DNA from: Alteromonas naphthalenivorans
GTDB lineage: Bacteria; Pseudomonadota; Gammaproteobacteria; Enterobacterales; Alteromonadaceae
DNA: 64,000 bases
NCBI RefSeq assembly: GCF_000213655.1
Contig: NC_015554.1
Span: 3,658,001-3,722,000, forward strand
Reading direction: 5' to 3'
Made by a program: the position numbers and the translations under genes. Each line of letters opens with the position of its first letter. Positions within the stretch are counted from its first letter, which is position 1. This document shows positions 40,225 to 55,344 of this stretch, in pieces. The notes under the pieces are model-generated. The model was not told the origin of the DNA. It made no database searches and saw nothing but the letters and a program-made list of their open reading frames with translations.

Positions 40225-40293
40225 TTAGCTCATCGCCCTCTTTGTTTTGGCGGTGGGTTTAGCGGTAGCTGGTTCGTCTGGCCAAAAGTGCTT
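40225..40293 (-). pseudogene. hrpB: Displaced 3' end of hrpB
   Basis: Read on the minus strand, these bases encode KHFWPDEPATAKPTAKTKRA-MS-stop. This is the typical HrpB C-terminus (RYPKH-x-WPDDP followed by a basic tail). The main hrpB frame loses homology exactly after RYPK at 52759, 12.5 kb away. Joining the two pieces through the shared CCAAGC (GCTTGG on the plus strand) restores ...RYPKHFWPDEP... without a gap. This fragment marks the left boundary of the mobile element. Confidence 0.95.
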
Positions 40294-40295
40294 GG
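40290..40295. repeat. 6-bp direct repeat at the left element junction
   Basis: GCTTGG, identical and in the same orientation as 52758-52763. It is the only sequence common to both hrpB junctions; one copy is consumed when the uninterrupted gene is rebuilt. Six base pairs is the spacer/overlap size I recall for SE-type elements. Confidence 0.85.
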
Positions 40296-40312
40296 CAATG
40301 TGAATAATCAAA
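40296..40312 (+). repeat. Left terminal inverted repeat of the element
   Basis: CAATGTGAATAATCAAA. Aligned with the minus-strand right end TTATGCGAAGAATGGAA, 11 of 17 positions agree (shared pattern ATG-y-GAA-k-AAT-nn-AA), starting immediately next to the 6-bp direct repeat. It is the probable outer recombinase-binding site. Confidence 0.75.
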
Positions 40313-40315
40313 CTC

Positions 40316-40496
40316 GTTGACAGCTACCTTAAGCCCTTATTATCAATAGGTGCAAGCCCATTCAATATATTATCCGTTGACAAGTCAACATAATCCTATT
40401 GTTGACACTCTATTCCCTCCCAGTTGACAGTGACTAATTTAAAGTTGACAGATTAATAGCATGTACGTTGACATAATTATCATCCGTGCGTTGACA
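40316..40496 (+). repeat. Left-end array of seven GTTGACA repeats
   Basis: Exact GTTGACA at 40316, 40376, 40401, 40423, 40444, 40467 and 40490, all on the plus strand pointing into the element. The last six are 21-25 bases apart, about two helical turns, so bound proteins would lie on one face. The copy at 40376 is half of an inverted repeat GTTGAC-AA-GTCAAC. No ORF covers the array. The motif contains the -35 hexamer TTGACA but no -10 box is suitably placed, so a binding array is more likely than promoters. Confidence 0.85.
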
Positions 40497-40519
40497 AAAA
40501 TAGAGAGAAATACATTTCT

Positions 40520-40613
40520 GTTACCCAGTAACATTATTGTACCTACTTACTAATTACATTTTCTGTTACCCAGTAACGTAAATGCAATTTATAGTTTTTT
40601 GTTACCCAGTAAC
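40520..40613. repeat. Three copies of palindrome GTTACCCAGTAAC
   Basis: GTTAC-CCA-GTAAC at 40520-40532, 40565-40577 and 40601-40613, with conserved flanks (TTTCT before, AT-rich after, two of three followed by TAAATG). A fourth copy is at 43198-43210 near the start of the third cargo gene. It is placed like an operator for the cargo genes or a small repeat family; no match is recognised. Confidence 0.8.
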
Positions 40614-40744
40614 ATAAATGCGCTAAACCTTACTTCAATCGCACTGTCCTTATTGGGGTAAACCAATGTTAGTTATGATTGACTATTCGAGTCTCAGCTA
40701 ACAATATATTTAGTCAGTCTTACATTTTATTGAAAAAAGCCTTT

Positions 40745-41374
40745 ATGAATAATGAAATAAAACAAAACTTCGAAGAAAAGATCAGGCTTGTCCTTATAGA
40801 GTTAAAATCGACACTTGAAGAAAATTTTGAGTTAATGCTTCGACGTCATGCGGCAGATGGTTTAGTTCGTTCAGGAAACACGATCAAAGCCACAATGGAT
40901 ATGATTTCAAGACATACATCCGAGCTTTATGATGAAATTCTTGCCTATTTAGACGTGCTCTCAATTCATTACTACTCTTTATTAGAAAGTGATGTCTCAA
41001 ATCTTGCAAGCAAAGCACAAGCTCAATTAAAAGTTGAAACAATAGCTAAGTTTAAGAAAAGTACTGAACTCGCAGGAAATCCAAGCTTATATGAAAGAAT
41101 GCTCCCAGATTTGGAAGCTGAAATGGCAAAAAATTTAGCGACTTTTCAGAATGCACTCAATGCTAAGGTATTGGAAATTAAGCATAGCACTTATAAATCG
41201 CCTTACGAAAAACTACTTTGGATTTTTGAAGCTATACTGCTTGCTATTTCAATATTTCTTGCTGGCATGTGGTTTAAAGATCCAGAAGGAAATTACGAAC
41301 CAATACTTATTGGCTTAGGGTTAATTATGCCATTGGTTTATTTGTTAATTAGGCGAGTATCAAAAAGTAACTAA
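40745..41374 (+). CDS. Cargo protein 1: coiled-coil protein with two C-terminal membrane helices
   Basis: 209 residues from the ATG at 40745 (MNNEIKQNFEEKIRLVLIEL); the frame opens 22 codons earlier at a TTG. It has a long helical, charged N-terminal part (~1-160) with no catalytic motif, then two membrane helices (~163-183 and ~188-205) and a short basic tail. The ribosome site is weak. It is the first gene of the element's left side, downstream of the GTTGACA and GTTACCCAGTAAC arrays. Not recognised. Membrane-tethered coiled-coil proteins are common effectors in phage defence, but no other defence signature is present. Confidence 0.65.
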   Translation: MNNEIKQNFEEKIRLVLIELKSTLEENFELMLRRHAADGLVRSGNTIKATMDMISRHTSELYDEILAYLDVLSIHYYSLLESDVSNLASKAQAQLKVETIAKFKKSTELAGNPSLYERMLPDLEAEMAKNLATFQNALNAKVLEIKHSTYKSPYEKLLWIFEAILLAISIFLAGMWFKDPEGNYEPILIGLGLIMPLVYLLIRRVSKSN

Positions 41375-41451
41375 CCAAGTGTGGATTTTTTCAGATTGAT
41401 GAAAAATGTTTCGAAACAACTTATACAACGCATAAAAAGGGGCACACGGTA

Positions 41452-42069
41452 ATGGAAGATATAAAAGAGATTTCAATTTTGAGCAAGGGAATAGCTGCAC
41501 TTCTTTTCCTTGCCGCACTCGGTCACACTAGCGCCACTCTTTTGCCTATCCTTGCAGACCAGCAGCCTTCCAGTCCCGCAATGACTAAAGTTTTAGGATT
41601 TGTTCTATGGTATGGCTTATTCTTCATGGTCATTATGTCATGGAGGGGTAAAAAAAAGCTTATAGGCTTTATTACTGGGGCCGCAATAGGATTCGCAGTC
41701 TATTTTGTTCTAGGAATGTCGGTTGGTTATAATAATGCTGAAACACGAGCGATAGAGCAAGCAGTTCAAAACAGCAACGCGGGTCTGCCTATCATGATCG
41801 ATGACTCAACACGCCTTGATAGAGTAGCGATAGATCAAAAAAATAAGAGATACACCTACTTCATATCTATTATAGATTTAACTGCAAGTGAAATAGACAT
41901 ATCAATCATGAATCAGCACTTTTTTGAAAATACCAAACCACAGTCTTGCCAAAACGAACAACTAAAAGTATTTTTTGGTGAGGGATACAGCATTAACTAC
42001 AGCTATTTCGACAAAGCTAACTCATATATTGTTGAGTACACCGTACAACCAAAAGATTGCATGGGATAA
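41452..42069 (+). CDS. Cargo protein 2: three-helix membrane protein with soluble tail
   Basis: 205 residues. There are three hydrophobic segments (~10-32, ~46-63 and ~70-92) followed by a soluble C-terminal domain (~95-205) with two cysteines (SCQNEQ, KDCMG) that could pair outside the cytoplasm. The ATG lies 10 bases after AAGGGG. It follows cargo gene 1 by 77 bases in the same direction. The product is not recognised; there are no enzymatic motifs. Confidence 0.65.
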   Translation: MEDIKEISILSKGIAALLFLAALGHTSATLLPILADQQPSSPAMTKVLGFVLWYGLFFMVIMSWRGKKKLIGFITGAAIGFAVYFVLGMSVGYNNAETRAIEQAVQNSNAGLPIMIDDSTRLDRVAIDQKNKRYTYFISIIDLTASEIDISIMNQHFFENTKPQSCQNEQLKVFFGEGYSINYSYFDKANSYIVEYTVQPKDCMG

Positions 42070-42194
42070 CTGAAACTCGACATATAGTGTTTCAGACTTG
42101 AAGTCTGTAATAAAAATAACTCCGTACTGCCACTTCTCCAAATATGAGTATGCCGGAGCTATCTATGATTCAGGACCGAACCGACTAGCTATAA

Positions 42195-43070
42195 CTATAT
42201 GATAGCACTAATTATAACTGCGAGAGCAAGTGCCCATATCGCGGTAATTATGCTCTTTAATGGTAATTGCAGATTCGTTATTACTTGAAGTAATTGCTGA
42301 TGCGCGACTTGCTCAGGTATAGACTCATGCTCATCAATGATGGTATCAGCGAACTCTTCTTCACTATCATCAGGTTCGTTCGTTTCCTGAGGACCAACAG
42401 TTGATGAGAGGCTTACGCCAGAAACAAATGCAGTTGCACCGTCATTTATAACCAAATCTCGTGAATGATATGGCTCACGCAAGCTATCATCTACTTCATA
42501 AGTAAACGACGCTAACTCTGAGTAGACTTCAAGTTTGGCATCACTATCTAAATCATATCGCTCTGCAAGCGCGTGTACTTGCGCTTCTGGCATATACATT
42601 TCAAAGATGATGTCATCTTCACCCGGATCATAATTCATTCTAAAGCAACTGCCCCAAAAGACTCCTTGGTTTATAACTTGCTTTTCGTTGTCCTTTGGAT
42701 CTCTGGCTGGCTCGCCAGACCTCAGGTTGACCTTTATAGACCCTTTCGGTCTGACTATTATGAATTCATCATTCTTATCGGTTTCATCTAAGCAATATAT
42801 ATTGTCAGCGAATTTTTCGTAATCGACTTGCCCAGAAATAATAATCTCGGTACTGACGTCGGCGGTGATTTGTTTTTCTGGTGTGTTTTTTAACTTGCCT
42901 GAAAAATCATAGTCTTTTTTGTGGGTTTTGAGGCTTGTTATGACTTTGACGTTTTGAAGAGGCAATGCTATCGAATTTAACCGCCTTTCCCATTTAAAGT
43001 TATGTTTTTCGTCTACTTGTAGATATTCCGTCTCCGAGACCTTCCTTAATAGTTTTCCACTTGAGAACAA
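42195..43070 (-). CDS. Cargo protein 3: tail-anchored protein of unknown function
   Basis: 291 residues ending in a single C-terminal membrane helix (~272-291, SIITAIWALALAVIISAII), so it is a tail-anchored cytoplasmic protein. The soluble part is acidic, predicted mostly beta, with no known motif. The start is TTG behind a strong GGAGG (43076-43080), 5 bases away. It converges with cargo gene 2; the 125-base gap between them holds nothing evident. A GTTACCCAGTAAC palindrome lies 128 bases upstream of the start. Not recognised. Confidence 0.65.
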   Translation of the reverse strand: MFSSGKLLRKVSETEYLQVDEKHNFKWERRLNSIALPLQNVKVITSLKTHKKDYDFSGKLKNTPEKQITADVSTEIIISGQVDYEKFADNIYCLDETDKNDEFIIVRPKGSIKVNLRSGEPARDPKDNEKQVINQGVFWGSCFRMNYDPGEDDIIFEMYMPEAQVHALAERYDLDSDAKLEVYSELASFTYEVDDSLREPYHSRDLVINDGATAFVSGVSLSSTVGPQETNEPDDSEEEFADTIIDEHESIPEQVAHQQLLQVITNLQLPLKSIITAIWALALAVIISAII

Positions 43071-43197
43071 ATTAACCTCCCTTTTATATTATTATGTATT
43101 TTAGACGTAATACTAGCCAAACAAATCTGCTAAGCAAAGGTGATTCAGATTTACGTGCATAGTAAAGATCCCTCCCCCTAAATTTCTGTTACCCAGT

Positions 43198-43210
43198 AAC
43201 ATTAATTAAT
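43198..43210. repeat. Fourth copy of GTTACCCAGTAAC
   Basis: Identical to the three copies at 40520-40613, with the same TTTCT left flank and ATTAA right flank. It lies between cargo gene 3 (divergent from it) and the left end of the IS21-type element, which supports a regulatory role for the cargo block. Confidence 0.8.
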
Positions 43211-43507
43211 AATGCCTCTCATCATAACCCTCTTCAATCACGCCTGAGGATTCTAATTTCTTTATTAGACCAGAGAAGCTCGTGACATTTGCATATTCTC
43301 ATGCATCGCGATCACCTAATACCATCTAAGCCGATCACCTAATACTATCCATCGCGATCACTCAATACCATCGATGCAGATCACTTTTTGGTCAAAATGG
43401 TATTGAGTGATCGGCTTGAATGGTATCGTTCAATTTATACTCATTTTTGTCTATCCAGTAGGTGTTTTTAACCGTTATCCTTTTCATTTTTGATGATGAG
43501 AATAACC

Positions 43508-45053
43508 ATGCCAACGGCACCTATTTCAATGCGTAAACTTAAAGAGATTTTAAGACTAAAATACGACTGTAAACTCAGTCATCGAAAGATAGCAAACAGC
43601 TTATCTATTTCACCTTCAATTGTTTCTAAATATGCCTGTAAATCAGCAGAGTTAGGTATCACTTGCTGGCCACTTGATGAAAAATGGGATGATCATTCTC
43701 TGCAACGAGCATTCTTCAAAACAAAGCCCCGACTAAAAGGCTTTAGTATTCCTGACTGGTTGTTAGTTCAGCAGGAGCTGCGACCCAAAACCATGACGCT
43801 ATTGCTGCTTTGGCAAGAATACAAAGAGCGACACGAGGAAGGATTTTACAGTTACACCCACTTCTGCCGACAGTACAAGGCATGGCTTAAATGTCAAAAA
43901 CCGTCCATGCGACAAAACCATAAAGCAGGTGAAAAACTGTTTGTTGATTACTGCGGCCCAACTATGAATATTGTTGATGCTAGTACAGGTGAATACCGTA
44001 CAGCTCAAGTGTTTGTCGCAGTTATGGGCGCATCTAATTATACGTATGCGGAGGCAACGTATAGCCAAAAAGCTAGAAGATTGGGTGATGAGTCATGCTC
44101 GTTGTTTTGAGTTTCTTGGTGGTGTGCCAGAGCTGGTAATCCCTGACAACTTAAAAAGTGCGGTAACTAAACCTTGTCGATATGAGCCTGATTTAAATCC
44201 AACCTACCAACAATTGGCGACACACTACAATACGGTCATTGTGCCTGCTAGACCTTATAAGCCCAAGGATAAAGCCAAAGCAGAAGTGGGTGTGCAAATT
44301 GTCGAACGCTGGATAATGGCACGGCTTCGCAATGAAAGCTTCTTTAGCTTGCGCCAATTAAACCTAAAGATACAAAAACTGCTTGTCGACTTAAACCAGC
44401 GGAAAATGAAGAAGCACCCTGGTTCAAGGCTCAGTCAGTTTGAATCCATTGATAAACCTGCTCTCAAACCACTACCCACACAGGCTTACAGTTACACCTT
44501 AGTCAAACAAGTAAGCGTGCATATTGATTATCATGTCGAAGTTGAAAAACACTACTACTCAGTACCTCATACCTTGATCAAACAAAAGCTTGAAGCCCAT
44601 GCCACAGGTCAACTGGTGACACTTTACCATCAGGGTGTTCAAGTAGCCGTTCATCCAAGATCACACCGAGAAGGTGCACACACTACGCTTGATCTACATA
44701 TGCCAATAGCTCATCAAAAGCAGCAGCAATGGACACCACAACGGTTCGAGCGTTGGGCAGCTAAGTTCGGTGGTTCAACGGAGCAGTTTGTTATGCAATT
44801 GATGCAAGCTAAAAAGCATCCAGAACAAAGCTACCGTGCTTGTATGGGGTTATTAAGCCTAGGTAAGAAGTTTACTGACCAACGTCTTGAAGCAGCCTGT
44901 CATCGCGCATTAGCCACAGGTGTTACTCGCGTAAAACAAGTAAAAAACATTTTAGAAAAGGGCTTGGATAAGCAACCCTTGCCACAAGCTCAAGGTGATT
45001 TACTACAAGATATTGATCATAAAAATATCCGCGGCAACAACTATTACCATTAA
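43508..45053 (+). pseudogene. istA: istA transposase, frameshifted
   Basis: IS21-family DDE transposase. The N-terminal part (MPTAPISMRKLKEILRLKYD, HTH, then [11 protein letters not shown] with a catalytic Asp) runs in one frame to a stop at 44110. The C-terminal part ([20 protein letters not shown] and [11 protein letters not shown] onwards) continues in the +1 frame to 45053. The break is at about 44068-44072 (CAAAAAGCTAGAAG), where one extra base separates TYSQK from LEDW. Shifting back would need +1 movement, unlike the -1 slippage of IS elements, so inactivation (or a base-calling error) is more likely than programmed frameshifting. Confidence 0.88.
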
Positions 45054-45081
45054 TCAAAACTAACAAACCAAAGGAAATCTT

Positions 45082-45814
45082 ATGCAAAATATCAATCAAC
45101 AAGTCAATAACCAGTTAAGTAACTTAAAGCTAAGCGGTATACGTGATGCACTATTGCAGCAATATGAGCAACCCAATCTATACGTAGAACAAAGTTTCGA
45201 AGAGCGGCTAAGTTTATTGCTTGAGCATGAAATAACACAGCGTGACCAGCGTAAAATTGATCGCTTAACTCGTCAAGCAAAGTTCAGAGTTGGCGGCACA
45301 CTGGCTCAACTAAACTATGGCGCAGCACGACAACTCGATAAAACTCAGATCCGTTCATTAGCACAAGGTGAATGGCTTCGCCTTCATCAAAACATCTTGA
45401 TCACGGGCGCAACGGGGTGTGGCAAAACTTACCTCGCTTGCGCGCTTGGTCAAAACCACTGCCAACAAGGGAGTAGCGTTTATTATTTTAGGCTTAAAGA
45501 GCTATTAGAAAAGATGTTCTTAGCGCAAGCCGATGGTAGTTATCGAAAACTGATCAACAAGCTTAGCTCTGCCAATTTACTGATCCTAGATGATTGGGGG
45601 ATTAGAGCCATTAACAGCTCAACAACGCAGTGATTTACTGGAATTAATTGATGCGAGATATGACACAAAATCGACCTTAATTGCCAGCCAATTACCGATA
45701 GAAAATTGGTATGAAATGATCGGAGAATCGACACATGCTGATGCGATCCTAGATCGGCTTGTTCACGGAGCAATAAAGTTGGAATTAAAAGGCGAATCGA
45801 TGCGAAAAAACTAA
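45082..45814 (+). pseudogene. istB: istB helper ATPase, frameshifted
   Basis: AAA+ ATPase that assists IstA. Walker A is in ITGATGCGKTYLACAL and Walker B in LLILDDWG. After DDWG the frame runs into a stop at 45633, while the normal continuation LEPLTAQQRSDLLELIDARY resumes in the +1 frame to 45814. One extra G in a G5 run at 45596-45600 explains the break. AAAGGAAATC precedes the ATG. Together with the istA frameshift it indicates a non-autonomous copy. Confidence 0.88.
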
Positions 45815-45918
45815 ATTCCTTGACTGATGGCGATCACTCAAGTTAGATTTTACTAAGGTCTACTGGCAGACAAAAAAGTGATCGGCTTGAATAGTATTGA
45901 CCGATCGGCTTCATGGTA

Positions 45919-46515
45919 TTACGCAACATTCGCATCAGCCATTAATCGAGTCAAGTCATCATGGTTTTGCTTCATCTCGATTAAGAGCGCATCCCATGTT
46001 TTATTTTGCTTGCGACGAGTTAGTTGTTCAAAAAGCTTAAGTTCAATAGAGATTTGTTTTTTACGCTTTTGGCGCTTGTGTATGCTTTGACGTTTACTTG
46101 CCTGATAGCGTTTCCAGAAGTCTGGGCCAAGCGCATCAATCGCTTCTTGAAGTTTATCTATATCTTCTTGCTGGGCTTTGACTTCACTCTCTTGCGCTTC
46201 TTTAATCGCTTTTATTAACTCTTGCCCTTTCTCTTCAGAGACGCCATCACCAGCTAATTGTTCGAACAATTCGTCAACTTTTTCTTTAACCCACTTAGAA
46301 GATCGAGTTACTGAATATCCTTTGCTGTTAAGGTAATTCACCACTTCCTTAAGGTGCTCTCTGGCATCAAAATCGTACTGAAATTCGTCTTTGTATTTGT
46401 ATGTTTCAAAGCACAAATCGAATACAACTTCATGGATATTGTCTTCTGAAATACGCTTGGGCTTGCGACCAAATCTTTGATAGCTTTCGATGCTGATCTG
46501 TTCTTGTTCGCTCAT
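45919..46515 (-). CDS. Charged helical protein of unknown function at the end of the recombinase operon
   Basis: 198 residues, soluble, highly charged and mostly helical with a long coiled coil (~85-160) and a basic segment (KRQSIHKRQKRKKQ). It lies 99 bases downstream of the 145-aa gene on the same strand, so it may belong to the same transcript. Its last codons (MADANVA-stop, with TAA at 45919-45921) lie within or against the IS21 right terminus, so the natural C-terminus may have been cut by that insertion. Not recognised; possibly a DNA-binding accessory protein. Confidence 0.6.
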   Translation of the reverse strand: MSEQEQISIESYQRFGRKPKRISEDNIHEVVFDLCFETYKYKDEFQYDFDAREHLKEVVNYLNSKGYSVTRSSKWVKEKVDELFEQLAGDGVSEEKGQELIKAIKEAQESEVKAQQEDIDKLQEAIDALGPDFWKRYQASKRQSIHKRQKRKKQISIELKLFEQLTRRKQNKTWDALLIEMKQNHDDLTRLMADANVA

Positions 46516-46614
46516 AAAGTACTCCTGACTTTTAAAATGTGCTAACGCGCTTCGCTTGTTGAATCCCTGCTGAATGTAAAAGCAAGTTTTACAATCACCA
46601 GCGATTGACTGTTA

Positions 46615-47052
46615 TCAGTGCCTTGAACCCATTTGAACCGGGATGACTTTTCCACTTTTCAAGTCTCGATTTTCTTTCTCAAGCTCTCTGCCTCGCTCTA
46701 CCAGCTTTAGGTTATCAGCCATCATGATGTGAAGCTTGTACGTAAGTTCTTTAATCAGTTCGGCGTCTTTTTCTTTTTGCTGCTGTAACTTCTCGTTTTG
46801 CCTTTGAAGAACGCTTTTACCCTTTTTAGCAGGTTGACTAGCGACAGTCGCTTTATGATCTTTAAGCCTGTCTACAATTGCTTTGAATTTGTCTCTGTCT
46901 TGCTTGATGTAGCCTTTGCTAACAGTGCCAGCTTCACGCTCTATCAGGCCAAATGTGATCTCGTCATAACTGTTAGCGTCAACATTAACTGTTTCTCCGA
47001 CAATTAAGCGCTCCAGAGCTTCTTCACATGCTTTAAGTTTATCATCTGCCAT
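46615..47052 (-). CDS. Small coiled-coil protein, candidate SE auxiliary protein (Srap-like)
   Basis: 145 residues. A globular N-terminal half (~1-75, with GLIEREAGTVSKGYIKQDRD, HTH-like) precedes a long coiled coil (~85-135, QRQNEKLQQQKEKDAELIKE). It starts 3 bases after the 695-aa recombinase gene ends, so it is the fourth gene of the right-end operon. Its size, order and coiled coil fit the small auxiliary gene of SE elements and also TnpC of Tn554-type elements. The assignment rests on position; no enzymatic motif is present. Confidence 0.65.
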   Translation of the reverse strand: MADDKLKACEEALERLIVGETVNVDANSYDEITFGLIEREAGTVSKGYIKQDRDKFKAIVDRLKDHKATVASQPAKKGKSVLQRQNEKLQQQKEKDAELIKELTYKLHIMMADNLKLVERGRELEKENRDLKSGKVIPVQMGSRH

Positions 47053-47055
47053 AAC

Positions 47056-49143
47056 CTATACCTCTGCCGCCTCTGAAGGCTCTCTGTTTATCCTGTGCTT
47101 TTTAAACTTAACTAGTTCGTCTAGATTCGCCTTAGTTAATTGATGCTCACCAGAATCTTCTTCATATAGCTCAAGCTCTTCTGTGGTTAGCTCTATTTCT
47201 CGATCAACGTTAGATTCTTTAATAATTGCCCCTTCACACGTTAGGCAGCTAGTAAAGTCACCAAGCATAAAGCTGTCACAATCACCGACCTTGGTACAAC
47301 CGCCTAAGAGGGTTTCTCGGTAGGCAAATTCACCTTTTTCCACTTTCTTGACGGTCTCTTCCCTTACCTCTGTAATCAGTACTTCGCCATTACGGAGTGC
47401 TTCGTTTTGTCGCTCAATGTATGAACCCGTTTTGCCATAGAGCGGTTCATCACTACCAAGGATGTCTGAAAGCACTCGGTCAGCCATGTTGTATGGGATA
47501 CCTGTACGAAACTCTTTGATGATATGCTCTGGCGGCAACTCATATTTGCCCGTCTTCTCATTGAAGTAACCGAAGATAGACTCAGCCTTTTCAAAGTTGT
47601 TACTGTAATAGCGCGTCATGGCTCGTGTAACATGCTTTAATTGGGCTTTAAGCGATGCCTCAGAGACAAAGCCTGCATTGCTGGCATAGTACGCTAGAGA
47701 GCGCCTAAATTGATGGCTGTGAAGAGGCCACACTTCACCTATTTGATACTTCTCTTCCAATAAGAAATCTCTTTCATCATCACTGTTATTTAGCTCTTTA
47801 AAGTCAAGCTCTGTGATGACAAGGTCTTTCAACCATGACGGTTTGTGCCGCTCTCTGAATGTAGCAGGATAGATTTCTGAGATTTGTTTGTTTACCTTTA
47901 TAAATTCGGTGGTTGTAAATAGCCAGTCATCTTTCAGATTTAAGTTATGGAGAGCGCTTAATCCTTTATGAATCCTCTCCAATACCGCTACTGCCATCTT
48001 CACTTCATCTGGCGCAGACCAAGATACCTTAACCCTTTGTCCTGTAAACTTAGTTGTAGATGAGATAACCTCAACCACTTTTTTCTTATCAATGACTTTA
48101 CCATCTTTAGCCTTCACTTCTTCTGAACAAACAGATTTTGAAATCGATTTAGGCTTCATACGCTGCACTTCTTGGTTACGCATGCCTGTAAAATAATGAA
48201 GTGTTAATTTGCAAATGTACTGTATTTTAGCAAGTACTTTTTGAAGTTCATTGCGATTAGAAACACCAAATTCACCCTTAAAAAGTTTATTTAGTCCATG
48301 CCCTTTTAACGCTTGACTCATATCGGGACGCCATTGTGCTGTGCCACCCACAGCTAATGCTTTTTGTCTCTCGTGAGACAGGCCGTAATAAGGATCTTTA
48401 AATTTGGCTAAGAAAGCAGCTATGCGTCGAGAATACTTATGTATGTGCTTGATATCACTTTCTAAATGATCTCCAATTAGCAAGTATATACGTTGTGGAA
48501 TTATTACAGTTTGGTCATTGTCGAGTCGGTCAATGTCCACATCTGCTATTGCTGTGACATCAAATCTAAGTATTGACTCACCAAGAAACAACAACCCATT
48601 GACTAGTGCTTTTGCTTTGCTATTGAAGGCAGGTTTTTGGTGTTCTGTGACAAATAAAGCGAATAGTCTTTCATCTGAGAACAATTCCTTTAAGGTTACT
48701 TCGCCTAAAGTAGGGATCTCACTCAACCTAATACAGTATTTGGCTGCTTTTGATAAGACGATAAAATAATTGTATAACGTACTCACGGCCAGCATTCCTG
48801 TGTGGCCTGCGGGTCTTGAATACATCAGATGAAACAAAATGATCTTCATCTCATTGATAATTGCACTTGTATGTGGGCAGATACTCCCTTCTGTAATTGT
48901 TTCGAAGTTAAAAACGCTTATTCGATTAGCGCTTAATCGATAAGGGTTAAAGTCCCAAACGTTATCGCCAAACATTGCCGTAACCTTGTTGTTCGTATCT
49001 CTGCACAGCACAAAGTCATGCGGTATTTCGAGTTCAACTGATTTATCAAATGATAGCGAATCAGGAGCAAGGGCATCTGTTAGTTCGTCTGCGTTAAAGC
49101 ATGTATTTTCCAGCGTTTTTAGTCTTTCATTTAGATTAGGCAC
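47056..49143 (-). CDS. Tyrosine recombinase, catalytic (IntB-like)
   Basis: A 695-residue site-specific recombinase. Arg322 (YFTGMRNQEV), His477-x-x-Arg480 (HSHQFRRSLAYY), His504 (LKHVTRAMTRYY) and Tyr512/513 make a complete R-H-R-H-Y set. A C-terminal cysteine cluster (~630-660: GGCTKVGDC, then SCLTCEG) suggests a zinc-binding tail. Very long compared with phage integrases (~350-400), as in the multi-recombinase elements. Its start overlaps the 634-aa gene by 8 bases. Likely role: one of the two active recombinases that excise or integrate the element. Confidence 0.88.
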   Translation of the reverse strand: MPNLNERLKTLENTCFNADELTDALAPDSLSFDKSVELEIPHDFVLCRDTNNKVTAMFGDNVWDFNPYRLSANRISVFNFETITEGSICPHTSAIINEMKIILFHLMYSRPAGHTGMLAVSTLYNYFIVLSKAAKYCIRLSEIPTLGEVTLKELFSDERLFALFVTEHQKPAFNSKAKALVNGLLFLGESILRFDVTAIADVDIDRLDNDQTVIIPQRIYLLIGDHLESDIKHIHKYSRRIAAFLAKFKDPYYGLSHERQKALAVGGTAQWRPDMSQALKGHGLNKLFKGEFGVSNRNELQKVLAKIQYICKLTLHYFTGMRNQEVQRMKPKSISKSVCSEEVKAKDGKVIDKKKVVEVISSTTKFTGQRVKVSWSAPDEVKMAVAVLERIHKGLSALHNLNLKDDWLFTTTEFIKVNKQISEIYPATFRERHKPSWLKDLVITELDFKELNNSDDERDFLLEEKYQIGEVWPLHSHQFRRSLAYYASNAGFVSEASLKAQLKHVTRAMTRYYSNNFEKAESIFGYFNEKTGKYELPPEHIIKEFRTGIPYNMADRVLSDILGSDEPLYGKTGSYIERQNEALRNGEVLITEVREETVKKVEKGEFAYRETLLGGCTKVGDCDSFMLGDFTSCLTCEGAIIKESNVDREIELTTEELELYEEDSGEHQLTKANLDELVKFKKHRINREPSEAAEV

Positions 49144-51040
49144 TAGCGATCACCCCCATTCGTTCATACTGGTCTAATCTTCGCTCCCAAAAAGGGGTTA
49201 ATATTCCGGTAACCATCACTTTTTTCTCCACCCACTCTATCATGGCTTGATGGTCAGCAGATTTTTCGCCCACGGATTTTAATATCTCATTGATGCGGAT
49301 TGAGAGGGTCTGGAACTTTTCTTCGGCATGGTTAAAATCCGGTGATTCATTTCTAACTATGTCTATAACTCGAAGTACACTGTAGAGCTTATGTACATCT
49401 TCTTCGTCAGCGTGACAACTGTATTTGGCGCAGAATAAGCAGCCATACTGGGTTTTGCAGTCTGGTTCGATTGGAGGGTTATCTATCTCTGACTCAGGCA
49501 CACCTTCTTCAACACAGTGGCCCGTTGTAATTTTTTTACTGTGCTTGCCTGTTAAATCTACATGCTTTCTTGCTTTTTTAACTGCTTCCCAATGAGCTTG
49601 AAACTCCTTTGCCTGTCTTTCTGGCGTGGTTTCAGTGTAATCCGACGTGTTTGTTTCTTCAGTGTGATTTAATAAAGAAGCCCTTGTTTTCAAGTTTACT
49701 TCTAACTGGTTGAGTATTAAGTTTTTATACTTTCTTGCAGGGCAAGAAGTTATATCCTTCAAATCATTAGACAAGTAGATACCTCGAACCCTATCAAAAT
49801 ATCTATTGAAGCCTCGCCCACTTCTGAGCTGCCTTGGCTCTATCGTGTTGCCAGACCCGGTAGTAAAAAACAAGTACTTACACTCTGTTCCGTTTAAGAT
49901 CCATTTTCTGACTTCAAGATACTCTTTAAATAATTTGTATCCATAGATATTACCCAAGTTATATGAAACCTCTCTGCCTTTAGCCCGAAGTTTAATCGCC
50001 CTGAAATCATTGCTGAACTTGTCTTTTTCATACTCAAAATTTTCTGAATATTCTAGTTGCTTTACTTCGGATGGTTGAGCACCTGTTAGTAAGATAAAAA
50101 TTTTCATATAGGCTTGCATGCTCAAGGTTGCAAAATCTATACGCCTTTCATGCCGTTTGTCTTTGTTTACTTCTTCGAAGTTAGATACCCTGTCGCTGTA
50201 ATCCGATTTCAAACCATGATTTACAGTATCTTTCCACTCGTCGAACGTGGCCAGCCTCCCTTGTTCAAAGTTGTAAATGCCACGATGGAATGTCGTGAAA
50301 GGTGTTTTGACGTTACCTCCTTGAGACTGAAATACAAACGCTTCATAATCAGGCATTTTCAGCTTTATCGGGAAGTCTTTCTCTTCAATAACAAATGATT
50401 TTAGCTGTCTTGCCAAAGCTATTGCTGTTTGTATGAAGGTCATGAAATGCTGCTCTTTAGGCGGCTTTGTGCGATTGCGCTGACGTGGTATCGGATTGAT
50501 ACGTTCAACTATGAAAGCTGCTTCATCTTTTCCGAAACAGAGCCTAATGAGTGTTCTAAAAGTACCTTGCCAAAGAGATGCTTGGCCATTTGACATATCT
50601 TCCATTTTAAGTTGATGCCTCCACTCATTACTTAAATTTTTATAGGCATGGCGGCATTTCTGAGGACTTTCCATAAAATCAGCAAAGCCAAGCTGGTCAC
50701 AGGCATCAATAACACTTTTGAAGTTGTCAAAATAAGTCTCTCTAGTGGTATCTTGATATTTTGTACTTGAAAGGTAATCAAAAAGAGCTTCTAGCATATC
50801 GAGTCTCTCTCTTCTAAAAGAACTAAGAACAACAGGAGTAGGATCTGCTGCCTCCTTCCACATATTGTAAGTAAATCTTCTTTTCGAAAAAGCTAGACTT
50901 CCGATATCAATTGGAGATGCGCGAACAGCTTCATCCAGTTTCAGCCTGACGTTCTCAGGATGATCAATATCTCCTCTTAGCTGAGCAGGAGTTAATACAA
51001 CGGTCTCTCTTATGACCATATTTGCTTCATTTAACGACAC
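49136..51040 (-). CDS. Tyrosine-recombinase-like protein without catalytic residues (CoreA-like)
   Basis: 634 residues. It has the fold-level pattern of the flanking recombinases, but the catalytic Arg is Gln322 (LLTGAQPSEVKQLEY, against TGMRNQEV in the next gene) and no HxxR box or tyrosine motif could be found. A C-terminal Cys/His cluster (~540-560: DCKTQYGCLFCAKYSCHAD) probably binds zinc. The ATG is 2 bases after the 508-aa gene and the 3' end overlaps the 695-aa gene by 8 bases. A structural or DNA-bridging role beside two active recombinases is inferred, as for the non-catalytic core member of SEs. Confidence 0.8.
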   Translation of the reverse strand: MSLNEANMVIRETVVLTPAQLRGDIDHPENVRLKLDEAVRASPIDIGSLAFSKRRFTYNMWKEAADPTPVVLSSFRRERLDMLEALFDYLSSTKYQDTTRETYFDNFKSVIDACDQLGFADFMESPQKCRHAYKNLSNEWRHQLKMEDMSNGQASLWQGTFRTLIRLCFGKDEAAFIVERINPIPRQRNRTKPPKEQHFMTFIQTAIALARQLKSFVIEEKDFPIKLKMPDYEAFVFQSQGGNVKTPFTTFHRGIYNFEQGRLATFDEWKDTVNHGLKSDYSDRVSNFEEVNKDKRHERRIDFATLSMQAYMKIFILLTGAQPSEVKQLEYSENFEYEKDKFSNDFRAIKLRAKGREVSYNLGNIYGYKLFKEYLEVRKWILNGTECKYLFFTTGSGNTIEPRQLRSGRGFNRYFDRVRGIYLSNDLKDITSCPARKYKNLILNQLEVNLKTRASLLNHTEETNTSDYTETTPERQAKEFQAHWEAVKKARKHVDLTGKHSKKITTGHCVEEGVPESEIDNPPIEPDCKTQYGCLFCAKYSCHADEEDVHKLYSVLRVIDIVRNESPDFNHAEEKFQTLSIRINEILKSVGEKSADHQAMIEWVEKKVMVTGILTPFWERRLDQYERMGVIASA

Positions 51041-51042
51041 TG

Positions 51043-52569
51043 TTACTTCTCCTCTCCAGTGCTATTGAACTCTTCATCAAAGTCCCTAAAAACAAAGTCT
51101 TCAAAGGCATTTTGAGCTTCCTGACGCTCGTCAAAGTTCTCGAACAAATTAAGGTATGACTGTGTGACTTTAATATCTCTGTGACAGAGCCTAACCATCA
51201 CATCTCGCAGTATCATGTCAAAACGTCTGGGACGCTCTTGAATCCCTTTTTCAACCTTGTATTCCTCAATCTTTATTAACGTCTCGTAATAGCGCAGTGC
51301 ATAGGTTGCTCTTAACCAGTGGAATACAAAGTCTTTCGGGAAGTCCTCTGAAGCAAAACGCTCAATCTTCTTGCATAGCACATCTGTGCGTTTACCCTTG
51401 GGACGTGAGTCCTTTCGCATTACTTTGTAACGTGGGTCATTCTTTGCCATGTAGTGGCAATTACCCTGTTCAGAAATGAAGATATACATATCTTCGTCAG
51501 CAATAGGCTCTAAATCAGGATGTTCTTCCGCATAATTTTCCTGAAATTTTGCTCTGCGCTTTTTAGCAACACTGCTATTTGCATATACCTCTAGCTCTTC
51601 CGCCAGACCTTTTGGTATGTAGAACGTATATTTCCTATCGAATTTTGTATCTATTCCTGTGCCGGGGCCTGCGGTAATACGATATGTTCTATCTTTCTCA
51701 ATCAGCGCCTCTGTTTTAAATAGCTCAAGATGCTTCATTCGTAGTGTTAGGACTGTTTGTTTTCTGACACCTGTATATAATGCTAGCTGGGCTATTAAAC
51801 GCTCCTCTACGCTGAATTCATCTCGTTTTAATATGCCAACGATTTCTTCACGCTCACCTTTTGCTAACGGCCTTAGATCTTCACCCTCGTCTCGTACTTT
51901 GCCAGAAGAGACAGGCGCTGATTCTTTAGATACAGAGACAGTTTGATTTCGCTTCTTTCTCTCAACTGAAGCTGAGCCAGTTGCGGTGTCAAAGAAATGA
52001 GTGTAATCCTGAGCCATATCAACTCTATCAATATCATTTTCATAACCCGGCTGTTTGAATAGCCAATCGAAAAAGTAATAGACTTTGCCCGTTCTCAAAT
52101 TGATTGAGCCAGCAGCTACACGGCCACTGTCAACCATGTTATTAAAATATCTATAAGATGGTCTGTTTTTAGCTCTACGCTGTGAGAAGTCTAAATAGTC
52201 GATACCTTGATTTTCACAGAAAATAAGATAATCAAGCAGGTAAGTAGCAGTAGATTGAATTGCGTCGGTTTCTGAGCCGAGCTTTTTAAAATCAGATGCT
52301 AGATGCCAAAGGTACATATTGGCTTCTTTCCAAGGCCGCCCATCTTTATGCAGCAAAAATGGAAAGTTATAAACGGAATCGTCTGGAGCAATCCTTGAAT
52401 CCATCGGCGTGTAAAAATAGGAGTATTCTTTTTCTACACCCCCCTCTTCAGCGGCATGCTTAACAACTTGCGGCAATGCATGCGAGGGCACTCTATCAAA
52501 ATAGATATCAGCACTTACATCCTTGGTTCTTCGGATAAAGGTGATTCTCTGCGCTTTGGATAACTCCAT
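51043..52569 (-). CDS. Tyrosine recombinase, catalytic (IntA-like)
   Basis: A 508-residue recombinase. An N-terminal SAM-like DNA-binding part (~85-185) precedes the catalytic domain with Arg269 (LYTGVRKQTVLTL), His417-x-x-Arg420 (FHWLRATYALRYY), His463 (LCHRDIKVTQSYLN) and the nucleophile Tyr472. The ATG is preceded by CAGGAGCAG. It is the first gene of the right-end operon and reads inward from the element's right terminus. A perfect TATAAT (52611-52616, minus strand) lies upstream, with a GTTGACA at the expected start of transcription. Confidence 0.9.
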   Translation of the reverse strand: MELSKAQRITFIRRTKDVSADIYFDRVPSHALPQVVKHAAEEGGVEKEYSYFYTPMDSRIAPDDSVYNFPFLLHKDGRPWKEANMYLWHLASDFKKLGSETDAIQSTATYLLDYLIFCENQGIDYLDFSQRRAKNRPSYRYFNNMVDSGRVAAGSINLRTGKVYYFFDWLFKQPGYENDIDRVDMAQDYTHFFDTATGSASVERKKRNQTVSVSKESAPVSSGKVRDEGEDLRPLAKGEREEIVGILKRDEFSVEERLIAQLALYTGVRKQTVLTLRMKHLELFKTEALIEKDRTYRITAGPGTGIDTKFDRKYTFYIPKGLAEELEVYANSSVAKKRRAKFQENYAEEHPDLEPIADEDMYIFISEQGNCHYMAKNDPRYKVMRKDSRPKGKRTDVLCKKIERFASEDFPKDFVFHWLRATYALRYYETLIKIEEYKVEKGIQERPRRFDMILRDVMVRLCHRDIKVTQSYLNLFENFDERQEAQNAFEDFVFRDFDEEFNSTGEEK

Positions 52570-52599
52570 TATTTACTGCTCCTGACAAATGTGAAGTAC

Positions 52600-52740
52600 T
52601 GTCAACGAGCATTATAGTTCCTTTTCTTCGGTCAACAAATATTTTGTTCACCTTCTTTTATCAACTTTATTTTTACTTCCCCTTTTATTTTTTGACCTCT
52701 TTGTGTCAACAACTTTCTCACTTCCCTTTACCTTGTCAAC
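52600..52740 (-). repeat. Right-end array of GTTGACA repeats
   Basis: On the minus strand, exact GTTGACA at 52600-52606, 52704-52710 and 52734-52740, with one-mismatch copies GTTGACC (52630-52636) and GTTGATA (52659-52665). Spacing is near 30 bases or a multiple of 15. The orientation mirrors the left array, so both point into the element. The array overlaps the recombinase promoter region and is also translated as VDK/VDT in the altered hrpB tail. Confidence 0.8.
52611..52616 (-). promoter_or_regulatory. -10 box of the recombinase operon (putative)
   Basis: Perfect TATAAT on the minus strand, 42 bases upstream of the first recombinase ATG. A weak -35 (TTTGTT) lies 17 bases upstream. The GTTGACA copy at 52600-52606 would cover the transcription start, which suggests autoregulation by whichever element protein binds the repeat. 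Confidence 0.45.
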
Positions 52741-55344
52741 TTCCATTCTTCGCATAAGCTTGGGGTAGCGTCCTTTCATTTCTTTTTGAATCGCTAAATA
52801 ACTGCCTGTCCAGAACCCCGCTAAATCTTTAGTGGTTTGAAGTGGTCGTCCTGCTGGCGACAATAGCTCATAAACAATATTGGTTCTGCCACCCGCCACC
52901 GTCAGTGGGGCAGTTTGGCTGTACATCTCTTGCATTCTAACCGCTAACACCACATCACCGTTATCGCGATACTCAAGTGCAGCATCACGCCCTGTGGGTA
53001 TCGGTAAATGAGTTGGTAATAGTGAAGCAAGGGCGTCTTGCTGCGGCCAACTAAGTGCATTATTTAGCGTATTTTTCCATGGCAACTTTTGTAGTTTCGC
53101 CAAAGACTCACATCGACTTAAAGGCTCAATTAATGCCTCTTTTGCATTGTACATTAATGCCGGCAAAGACTGAGGCCACGGGTCTGGTTTATCGAACGCC
53201 TGCGGCTGAGGTAAATTCAACGATGCGGCAAGTTTAAGTCTGTTCCACCATTGCCAATCACCTTCCGTTAGTGGCCACTCACTTACTGGAATGTTCTCTA
53301 AATATTCAAACCATGCATAAGCAGTCTGTTTTTTCCAAAAGCGATTATCTTGTTGTTTCTCTTGCCCTGATACGGGCTCACTGGCTAAGTCGATGGCATG
53401 AAAACCGGCAATCACCCGTGCTTCCATAGCCTTTTTTGCCACGTTGTAACGTACTTGCTTTTTGCTAGTAAACTCATTTGGGAACACGGCACGAAGCAGG
53501 GCTTCATTAATTGGCTGGACTAACCTGAACTTCACCGTATTTCCAGTTTGCTGACCATGTAAAACGGCCAACCACTGTTCAGGGGAATGCTGCTCTAATT
53601 CGCCCCCCTTGCCACTGGCGAGCTTATATCCACTTTGCTGAGGCTTTCCTTGCATATTTCCTTGCGTGGCCCCTTGCCCTTTCTGATTTCCATTTGCCTT
53701 TCCGTTGGCCTTATCAGATGCTTGCCCCCGATAAAACGCCACCCGCTGAGGAAAGGCAATAGCAATACAAAGCGCCAATGCTTCTTCGTCTATGCCGTTA
53801 ATGTCCAAATCGTTCGCCGTAAGACCAACATATTTTGCATATTTAGATGCTTGCTGATGAAGCTGTTTGCGCGTTTGCCCATCAAGGTTCAACAGCGCAT
53901 CAATAACATAAATTTGTGTAAACTGTCCGCCTAAGTTTTCGGCCAATGCCACCACAAAAGGCGCAGCACATTTAAGTTTCCTTTGCATTGCAGGCTCTAC
54001 CCCTTCAACACCTTGCTCGCAGCGTATTAATAAATTCGCCAAATTTGGATGGCAGGGTATGTCGGACAGTTTACGCCCATAAGGGGTTATTATTTGGTTG
54101 TCATCAAGTTCTTTTAGGGCATCAATGGCGGTTAAGTTATTACCAGCCACCTTCAGCTGTGCATTAGTTGGCTGGGTTAACATCGCCAACGATGAGGGCG
54201 TAGCGCCCCATTGCAAGGCATCGAGCAATAAGGACGACACATCTTCTCGCAATACTTGCGGGGCATTATGCTGCGCCATACGCTCAAAACTACTTTGGCT
54301 GCATAACCGGTAGCAATCGCCCGCGCTAACCCGTCCCGCTCGCCCAGCCCGTTGAATAGCCGATGCGCGGGATATACGCTGTTGCATTAACTGGGTAAAA
54401 CCACTGGAAGGGTTATATTGCGCTTGATTCTCCCACATACTGTCTACCACCACCTTAACCCCTTCAATGGTTAAGCTGGTTTCGGCAATATTGGTGGCGA
54501 GAATAATTTTACGTCGCCCTTGTGGATCAGGGTTGATAGCGGCTTGTTGGGCTTCTTTGCTCATCGCCCCAAAAAGTGTGTGCAATGCCACATCATATTT
54601 ATCTTCCAGCGTAGAAAGTCGTTGTGCCACCCCTCGAATGGCTCCGCTTCCTGGCAAGAAGACCAGTACATCACCTTGGTGTTGAGAAAATGCTCGGGTA
54701 GTCATTTCTGCGGTGGCGCTAACCACCTCATGGGCGAGCACATCTTTGCTGTAATGCATAGTAACGGGGAAAGTTCGCCCTTTTGCATCGAGGTTAATGG
54801 CAGGCACAGCCCCGTGATTATCCATTAATGCAGTAAGCGGCTCTACATCAAGGGTGGCCGACATAACGACTAGGCGGAGATCTTCTCGCAAGCCAGCTTG
54901 TACGTCGAGGGCTAGCGCTAAACCGAAGTCGCTATGAATGCTGCGCTCATGAAATTCATCAAATATAATGGCCGATACCCCAGCAAGTTCAGGGTCAGAC
55001 TGAATCATTCTGGCGAGTATACCTTCGGTAATGAGTTCAAGACGGGTGTTCTTTCCTACCTTACTTTCACCTTTAATACGGTAACCTACTGTGTCGCCCA
55101 CTTTTTCATTAAGTATGCCTGCCAGATAATTCGCCAAATTCCGTACGACTACGCGGCGAGGCTGCATCAACAACACTTTACCCTGTGGTATCGCGCTTAA
55201 TAGAGAAAGTGGTAGCACCGTAGACTTACCTGCACCCGGCGGTGCACCTATGATAAGGTTGTTTTCGCTAATCGCCTTGTTAACCGGTTCAATAAGCTGG
55301 GCTGCGGGTAAATGTAATAACAGCTGTAACATAAAGGTTTGCAA
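52648..55344 (-). CDS. hrpB: ATP-dependent helicase HrpB, C-terminus replaced by mobile-element sequence
   Basis: DEAH/DExH-box helicase of 898 residues: Walker A GAPPGAGKST (33-42), DEFH box (129-132), VVMSAT motif III, the helicase C domain with QRAGRAGRVSAG, and HA2/HrpB_C regions. A low-complexity Lys/Gly/Asn/Gln insert occurs at ~545-580. Residues 1-862 end at RYPK; the last 36 residues (LMRRMEVDKVKGSEKVVDTK and the basic remainder) are encoded by the mobile element, with the GTTGACA repeats read as VDK/VDT. The native 21 residues with the conserved WPDEP motif are stranded at 40225. The protein is probably still made; effect on function unknown. Confidence 0.93.
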   Translation of the reverse strand: MQTFMLQLLLHLPAAQLIEPVNKAISENNLIIGAPPGAGKSTVLPLSLLSAIPQGKVLLMQPRRVVVRNLANYLAGILNEKVGDTVGYRIKGESKVGKNTRLELITEGILARMIQSDPELAGVSAIIFDEFHERSIHSDFGLALALDVQAGLREDLRLVVMSATLDVEPLTALMDNHGAVPAINLDAKGRTFPVTMHYSKDVLAHEVVSATAEMTTRAFSQHQGDVLVFLPGSGAIRGVAQRLSTLEDKYDVALHTLFGAMSKEAQQAAINPDPQGRRKIILATNIAETSLTIEGVKVVVDSMWENQAQYNPSSGFTQLMQQRISRASAIQRAGRAGRVSAGDCYRLCSQSSFERMAQHNAPQVLREDVSSLLLDALQWGATPSSLAMLTQPTNAQLKVAGNNLTAIDALKELDDNQIITPYGRKLSDIPCHPNLANLLIRCEQGVEGVEPAMQRKLKCAAPFVVALAENLGGQFTQIYVIDALLNLDGQTRKQLHQQASKYAKYVGLTANDLDINGIDEEALALCIAIAFPQRVAFYRGQASDKANGKANGNQKGQGATQGNMQGKPQQSGYKLASGKGGELEQHSPEQWLAVLHGQQTGNTVKFRLVQPINEALLRAVFPNEFTSKKQVRYNVAKKAMEARVIAGFHAIDLASEPVSGQEKQQDNRFWKKQTAYAWFEYLENIPVSEWPLTEGDWQWWNRLKLAASLNLPQPQAFDKPDPWPQSLPALMYNAKEALIEPLSRCESLAKLQKLPWKNTLNNALSWPQQDALASLLPTHLPIPTGRDAALEYRDNGDVVLAVRMQEMYSQTAPLTVAGGRTNIVYELLSPAGRPLQTTKDLAGFWTGSYLAIQKEMKGRYPKLMRRMEVDKVKGSEKVVDTKRSKNKRGSKNKVDKRR
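52741..52757 (-). repeat. Right terminal inverted repeat of the element
   Basis: Minus-strand TTATGCGAAGAATGGAA, next to the 6-bp direct repeat. It is the partner of 40296-40312, and GTTGACA follows at once on the inside (52734-52740). Confidence 0.75.
52758..52763. repeat. 6-bp direct repeat at the right element junction
   Basis: GCTTGG, matching 40290-40295. It lies within the hrpB codons for P-K. Confidence 0.85.

Follow-up and report, generated by a model that had tools for sequence, protein, structure and literature searches.

An SE-type element in the last codons of hrpB of Alteromonas naphthalenivorans and its relatives with TTGAC arrays at their ends

Introduction

Strand-biased circularizing elements (SEs) carry a four-gene operon in the order intA-tfp-intB-srap, and the type members SE-6283 and SE-6945 of Vibrio alfacsensis have a 6-bp spacer and imperfect inverted ends (PMC9345347, PMC10214605; papers cited by PMC number are represented here by excerpts of their text). 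A copy of bcp, the target gene of SE-6283, is also present within that element (PMC9345347). A third published member, SE-PaeBT2436, has the same gene order. Another described system, GInt/Tn6571 at the 3' end of Escherichia coli ssb, likewise combines a four-gene operon with a 3'-end target. The preliminary description of the locus studied here had regarded SEs as little described outside Vibrio. This view is contradicted by a survey that places them in 19.6% of Alteromonas replicons, as well as in Pseudomonas, Shewanella, and others (PMC10214605), and their occurrence in this genus is therefore not new.

Here, we analyzed 64,000 nucleotides of Alteromonas naphthalenivorans (contig NC_015554.1, positions 3,658,001 to 3,722,000; this whole stretch is the window, and its coordinates are used below), in which a 12,462-bp element at 40296-52757 interrupts hrpB. 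Four things are new: the occurrence, in a single clade, of seven elements inserted in hrpB; arrays of TTGAC whose distances from the element ends are kept; a pattern in the hexamers at attL and attR; and a spare hrpB in four of the seven. Literature searches of open-licence papers, supplements apart, gave no paper on hrpB-targeting SEs among the matches listed; Pseudomonas aeruginosa islands in hrpB are mentioned in PMC8373256. The hrpB set illustrates how one conserved gene can be entered repeatedly and the elements still be tolerated there. We consider it probable that these elements form a branch of the SE class that repeatedly uses the hrpB site RYPK/H, with strand-copying, arm-site arrays, and hrpB rescue.

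Results and discussion

The element sits in the last codons of hrpB

Read in the orientation of the operon, the attL border is TACC/CCAAGC/TTATGCGAAGAATGG and the attR border is TTCACATTG/CCAAGC/ACTTTTGG, with the same 6-bp flank, CCAAGC, at both (GCTTGG on the forward strand). The uninterrupted site, codons for RYPKHFWPDEPATA, was found in all five Alteromonas genomes whose hrpB comes closest to that of the window (protein identity 91-92%), and the core hexamer of the empty site was identical to that of the window element in four of these. From the empty sites of the relatives and the border reads, it follows that the element sits in the last hrpB codons, with the codons for RYPK/H as the attachment site. 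The native 3' tail of hrpB is detached and adjoins attR, while the interrupted gene now ends with 36 element-coded residues (RYPK-LMRRMEVDKV...KVDKRR), the first base of the first substituted codon being supplied by the 6-bp core. The locus thus retains a split attB, has imperfect inverted repeats at the joint, and has a 6-bp spacer, the three features by which SE insertions are recognized in PMC10214605. The borders, the gene order, and the five empty sites confirmed what had first been described from the window, namely a precise insertion with a 6-bp direct repeat, imperfect inverted termini, and a four-gene operon.

The operon encodes a catalytic tyrosine recombinase (P1, 508 aa), a non-catalytic protein with a recombinase fold (P2, 634 aa), a large catalytic recombinase (P3, 695 aa), and a small helical protein (P4). 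This order fits intA-tfp-intB-srap, with the intA position adjoining attL in the window element. P2 has neither the first Arg nor the His of the HxxR motif, and the recombinase fold was evident in its structure model. P4 agrees with Srap in position, size, and modelled helix, its best sequence match among the three published SEs having an E value of 0.77. In a separate observation, an 18-sequence alignment showed that residues 507-545 of P2 (window 49406-49522) contain invariant C509, C528, C534, C537, C542, and H543, which resembles a metal site.

The HrpB proteins of some Alteromonas (loci L051-L053, L062, and L063) end in HNW(D/E)LP; the element end in genome G001 encodes the same tail, and the element end in G1117 begins with HNW(D/E)LP. 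These five loci were considered as occupied sites and rejected, since three have ordinary chromosomal genes adjoining and two only a short open reading frame within 1.5 kb, and the tails are taken as natural.

Related elements in hrpB

Alteromonas lipotrueiana PS_109 (contig NZ_JAESDK010000006.1, L003) carries the same element at the same hrpB site. Between the hrpB border and the fifth gene, the two copies were 98.1% identical in an alignment of 6,938 bp (about 100 bp of this being hrpB), and the flanks were 64-76% identical in eight aligned segments, one of which contains the attR end. As judged from these alignments, one element is present in two distant species. Five further hrpB-inserted members were found (Table 1).

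P2 searches gave matches in 6 of 295 genomes of the order (E ≤ 1e-3), 3 of 369 of the class (1e-10), 4 of 59 of the genus (1e-3), 4 of 398 of the phylum (1e-20), and 3 of 108 of the genus Pseudoalteromonas (1e-30), the window genome itself being counted in all but the last. In the stretches viewed, hrpB was not seen beside the related-P2 operons of G087, G472, G668, G704, G806, and G974 or beside a second operon of the window genome. This second SE-type operon, at about 4730477-4735877 (L028:5478-10878), is 62-75% identical to the operon of P. aeruginosa pWTJH6 and belongs to the SE-PaeBT2436 clade. Shortened genes, which we take to be yifB/comM-like, lie beside two related operons (L087:7238-8221 and L070:13705-14670) and are perhaps another target gene.

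The seven hrpB elements and four plasmid operons formed one supported clade (100/100). The plasmid operons, on P. aeruginosa p382, P. amygdali pPlaYM7902A, S. stutzeri p1_PM101005, and in Vibrio sp. SCSIO 43139, are, among other operons, the nearest to the hrpB set, with P1-P3 being 30-42% identical, and have two or three TTGAC upstream of P1; unlike the hrpB elements, they are plasmid-borne and, as far as viewed, outside hrpB. Two observations count against the favoured reading. The seven are not a clade by themselves, as the plasmid operons are interspersed among them, and the operon does not adjoin attL in G016 and G001, with P1 broken in the latter; these two elements may be composite or decayed.

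A second, intact-looking hrpB lies within the element in four of the seven members, reminiscent of the bcp copy in SE-6283. No spare hrpB was seen in the window element, in the A. lipotrueiana copy, or in the viewed stretch of G1117.

Table 1. TTGAC positions (bases inward from the terminus; attR read within 215 bases), end hexamers on the operon strand, and second hrpB in the seven hrpB-inserted elements
Member	attL TTGAC	attR TTGAC	attL hexamer	attR hexamer	Second hrpB
Window	19, 49, 123, 153 (degenerate GTTGAT near 94)	22, 82, 107, 129, 150, 173, 196	CCAAGC	CCAAGC	
A. lipotrueiana	19, 49, 94, 123, 153	23, 82, 107, 129, 150, 174, 197	CCAAGC	CGAATC	
G661 (Pseudoalteromonas HM-SA03)	19, 49, 88, 118, 223	22, 81, 107, 129, 150, 174	CAAAAC	NGAAAC	present
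G016	20, 51	23, 82, 108, 129, 150	CGAAAC	CAAATC	present
G001	20, 47	22, 104, 128, 170	CGAAGC	CATCCC	present
G1079	20, 47	23, 81, 107, 138	CAAATC	CGAACG	present
G1117	46	22, 102, 127, 169	CGAAAC	ACAACG	

TTGAC arrays stand at set distances from the ends

Both ends of the elements carry arrays of TTGAC (Table 1). At attR, a site at position 22/23 and one at 102-108 were found in all seven members, one at 127-129 in six, and one at 81/82 in five. The TTGAC counts were compared with Markov shuffles in five members (those other than G1079 and G1117) and were equalled in 0 or 1 of 2,000 shuffles for both ends of the elements in the window, A. lipotrueiana, and G661 and, in G016 and G001, for the attR end. 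At attL, the arrays of the latter two were weak, as 63 (G016) and 182 (G001) of 2,000 shuffles did as well.

Sharing of positions, scored within 3 bases against 3,000 random placements, was clear between the window attR and those of G016 (5/5 positions; 0 of 3,000 placements) and G001 (4/4; 3 of 3,000). It was poorer for G1079 (3/4; 92 of 3,000) and G1117 (2/4; 620 of 3,000), a point against the favoured reading; G001 and G1117 shared 4/4 positions with each other (0 of 3,000). The DNA between the sites resembled that of the window element in A. lipotrueiana (z 14.4) and G661 (z 5.6) and was at shuffled level in G016, G001, G1079, and G1117 (z -1.1 to 1.1). Given shared positions combined with inter-site DNA at shuffled level, the positions have therefore been kept without the intervening sequence, clearly in G016 and G001 and less so in G1079 and G1117. 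Together, TTGAC arrays at set distances from the ends are strong in five members and partial in two, and the unusual end arrays of the first description hold.

The excerpts of the two SE papers (PMC10214605, PMC9345347) and of the GInt paper (PMC5385486) contain no description of such end arrays, nor of any end sites besides the short core repeats. Among the references, SE-6283 differs in having no TTGAC array upstream of its intA. In SE-PaeBT2436, the intA end was examined, and no k-mer recurred three times in the DNA upstream of the gene.

The arrays could be regulatory operators or -35-like boxes and not arm sites for recombination, and two properties fit this: TTGACA equals the sigma-70 -35 hexamer, and two of the attL sites are no more than 70 bp away from where P1 starts. 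We nevertheless regard it as unlikely. The operon start is 12 kb away from the larger array, that of attR, and several divergent members keep the spacing between the sites and the termini. Furthermore, a promoter scan of 52540-52800 gave a single candidate, with TTCACA; it is no array site and scored no better than shuffles.

End hexamers resemble hrpB at attL and often depart from it at attR

The best 30 hrpB loci each from 59 Alteromonas and 108 Pseudoalteromonas genomes were compared, the window's own and G1079 being set aside; all 58 loci without a recognized element had a core of the form CNAARC. A native-like hexamer was present at attL in six of the seven elements and at attR in two (one-sided Fisher test, p 0.051; the G661 attR, with one base unread, was scored as native-like). 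The hrpB tail behind every attR hexamer was still readable. This asymmetry is what the SE model predicts and points that way without proof. Several things temper it: the p value itself, the non-independence of the rows, the unread G661 base, the non-native attL hexamer of G1079 (CAAATC), and drift of a non-coding attR hexamer as another possible source of the differences.

The same data bear on an ordinary tyrosine-recombinase island that moves by cut-and-paste, exchanging both strands and leaving an empty site, with the hexamer differences produced by mismatch repair or mutation. Tyrosine recombinases in general split attB and work with a 6-bp overlap, and the G1079 exception and the borderline p value would suit this account as well. 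We think it improbable, more so than the operator reading of the arrays, as there are three recombinase genes in SE order, the attR departures from the hrpB reading fall within six bases while the adjoining tail is readable, and the SE members tested in print show strand bias (PMC10214605). The window element has CCAAGC at both ends, and the A. lipotrueiana copy has unlike end hexamers, so that strand bias would be readable in strain PS_109 from one PCR product.

Relation to SEs and other recombinase-operon elements

The comparisons support, in the broad sense, an assignment of the element to the SEs as defined in PMC10214605, far from the type members SE-6283 and SE-6945. The three published SEs fall on both sides of the main split in the tree, and the element joins between them. 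SE-PaeBT2436, represented by a Klebsiella plasmid record with the accessions printed in PMC10214605 (WP_034039553.1 for Tfp and WP_023443007.1 for Srap), shares the gene order, falls with the window element on one side of the P3 tree, and matched P1 (E 1e-14), P3 (3e-15), and, weakly, P2 (3e-5). It nevertheless belongs to a separate clade, and its P4 match was not significant (E 1.5). The membership first proposed from gene architecture is thus partly upheld, by gene order, by the insertion features, by these matches, and by dissimilarity to GInt, but not as closeness to the Vibrio elements. In the four-protein comparison with SE-6283 and SE-6945, P3 matched SE-6283 (E 8e-17), while P2 had no significant match to either; their target genes are also other ones.

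Further points count against SE membership. P4 had no significant match to any of the three published SEs. The trees, built without SE-PaeBT2436, G1079, and G1117, rejected a clade made up of five hrpB elements and the SE-6283/SE-6945 group alone (approximately unbiased test, p 0.005 for P3 and 8e-6 for P2). Finally, P2 relatives occur in Paraburkholderia, while PMC10214605, in the excerpts, reports no SE in Betaproteobacteria.

The missing P2 and P4 matches to SE-6283 and the betaproteobacterial relatives would suit membership among the GInt (Tn6571-type) genomic islands. These share the four-gene operon of three recombinase-fold proteins and a small protein, as well as the end-of-gene target printed for GInts. 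Pseudomonads, a group with many GInts (PMC10214605), make up the named relatives of the P2 from Stutzerimonas. A GInt reference was recognized from its place at ssb and from the order of its genes rather than by accession. An ssb-yjcB query matched 5,376 E. coli records, in 4,946 of which at least 80% of the query lay in one place; two of the remaining records, B20127 and AVS0968, had the same four-gene operon at the ssb 3' end, with identical protein accessions. Its order is catalytic-catalytic-non-catalytic-small, as in the printed description (PMC5385486), so that the non-catalytic gene is third, as expected for ginA-ginB-ginC-ginD, whereas it is second in the window element. The reference proteins had no significant similarity to those of the window element (best E 2.6), and their best match to any compared operon was to P1 of SE-PaeBT2436 (E 0.003). 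GInt membership is disfavoured by this gene order and dissimilarity, and also by the position of SE-PaeBT2436 on the window element's side of the tree; we regard it as very improbable. As a side observation, the anti-phage gene avs4 follows the GInt-type operon at the E. coli ssb 3' end (L132, L133).

RIT, Tn554, and integrative and conjugative or mobilizable elements, groupings that would have spoken against the first description, can be set aside: RIT elements have a catalytic trio of 315-410 aa (table in PMC10214605), much unlike proteins of the sizes found here with P2 non-catalytic by motif, TnpA, TnpB, and TnpC of Tn554 include no counterpart of Tfp (PMC10214605), whereas P2 is present here, and Pfam and NCBIfam scans of eight element proteins gave no conjugation or mobilization genes.

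A model for movement and for tolerance in hrpB

In the SE-type model that we favour, P1 and P3 would cleave a single strand within the 6-bp core and exchange it, with P2, whose active site is incomplete, and P4 in architectural roles. The TTGAC arrays would be arm-type sites holding both ends in one asymmetric complex, about five of these putative sites being at attL and seven at attR in the window element and fewer in divergent members. Strand exchange would join the ends with the attL-side hexamer, and replication would then yield a circle while the donor remains in place. On entry, the hexamer of the circle would become the new attR, and that of the target would remain at attL. The broken hrpB may be kept usable either by an in-frame, element-coded tail, as here, or by the additional hrpB that some members carry as cargo.

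More tentatively, and with the balance against it, the arrays, with five TTGAC at one end and as many as seven at the opposite one, could act as a ruler that is bound by P2 or P4 and builds the asymmetric complex choosing the exchanged strand, coupled to hrpB rescue by the coded tail or spare gene; the end architecture of an SE would then be readable for the first time. If true, such a ruler would account for the strand bias of SEs. Arrays at set distances from both ends are, in any case, concrete substrates for footprinting and spacing tests.

Cargo, palindromes, and insertion sequence

The features of the window element are listed in Table 2. Its cargo is new, as had been claimed; the three cargo proteins had no match in Pfam, NCBIfam, PADLOC, or PHROG. 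Among the eight scanned element proteins, only P1 had a Pfam match and none had an NCBIfam match.

Table 2. Features of the window element and its surroundings
Feature	Position	Strand	Remarks
Native hrpB 3' tail (HFWPDEPATAKPTAKTKRAMS and stop)	40225..40289	-	detached, beside attR
6-bp repeat GCTTGG (CCAAGC on operon strand)	40290..40295	.	distal border, attR
Terminus C' (CAATGTGAATAATCA)	40296..40310	+	imperfect inverted match of C
attR array	40316..40496	+	7 GTTGACA; positions in Table 1
Three imperfect palindromes TGTTACTGGGTAACA (minus strand)	40511..40617	.	fourth at 43179-43204
Three cargo genes	40679..43070		231 aa (+), 205 aa (+), 291 aa (-)
IS21-family insertion	43295..45925	+	limits approximate; istA and istB frames broken; sits in fifth gene
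Fifth gene after P4	45919..46515	-	end truncated by the insertion; 222 aa in A. lipotrueiana
P4, small auxiliary protein	46615..47052	-	Srap position; long C-terminal helix in model
P3, large catalytic tyrosine recombinase	47056..49143	-	IntB position
P2, tyrosine-recombinase fold	49136..51040	-	Tfp position
P1, catalytic tyrosine recombinase	51043..52569	-	IntA position
attL array	52600..52740	-	four TTGAC and a degenerate copy; positions in Table 1
Terminus C (TTATGCGAAGAATGG)	52743..52757	-	
6-bp repeat	52758..52763	.	proximal border, attL
Target gene hrpB	52648..55344	-	last 36 codons from the element end

The A. lipotrueiana copy is without the IS21-family insertion and has other genes in the cargo position. 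Homology between the two copies ends at window 43206 and 40584, each point adjoining a palindrome TGTTACTGGGTAACA. Within the 4.97-Mb genome to which the window belongs, the palindrome core, GTTACTGGGTAAC, is confined to the element, where it has four copies; A. lipotrueiana has two copies in the element and one elsewhere. Cargo may have been exchanged between the palindromes. In the A. lipotrueiana copy, the palindromes TGTTACTGGGTAACA are at L003:16650-16730. A second copy of the IS21-family insertion lies near the second SE-type operon of the window genome (L028:17291-19001; 99.8% identity over 1,712 bp), and istB is whole there.

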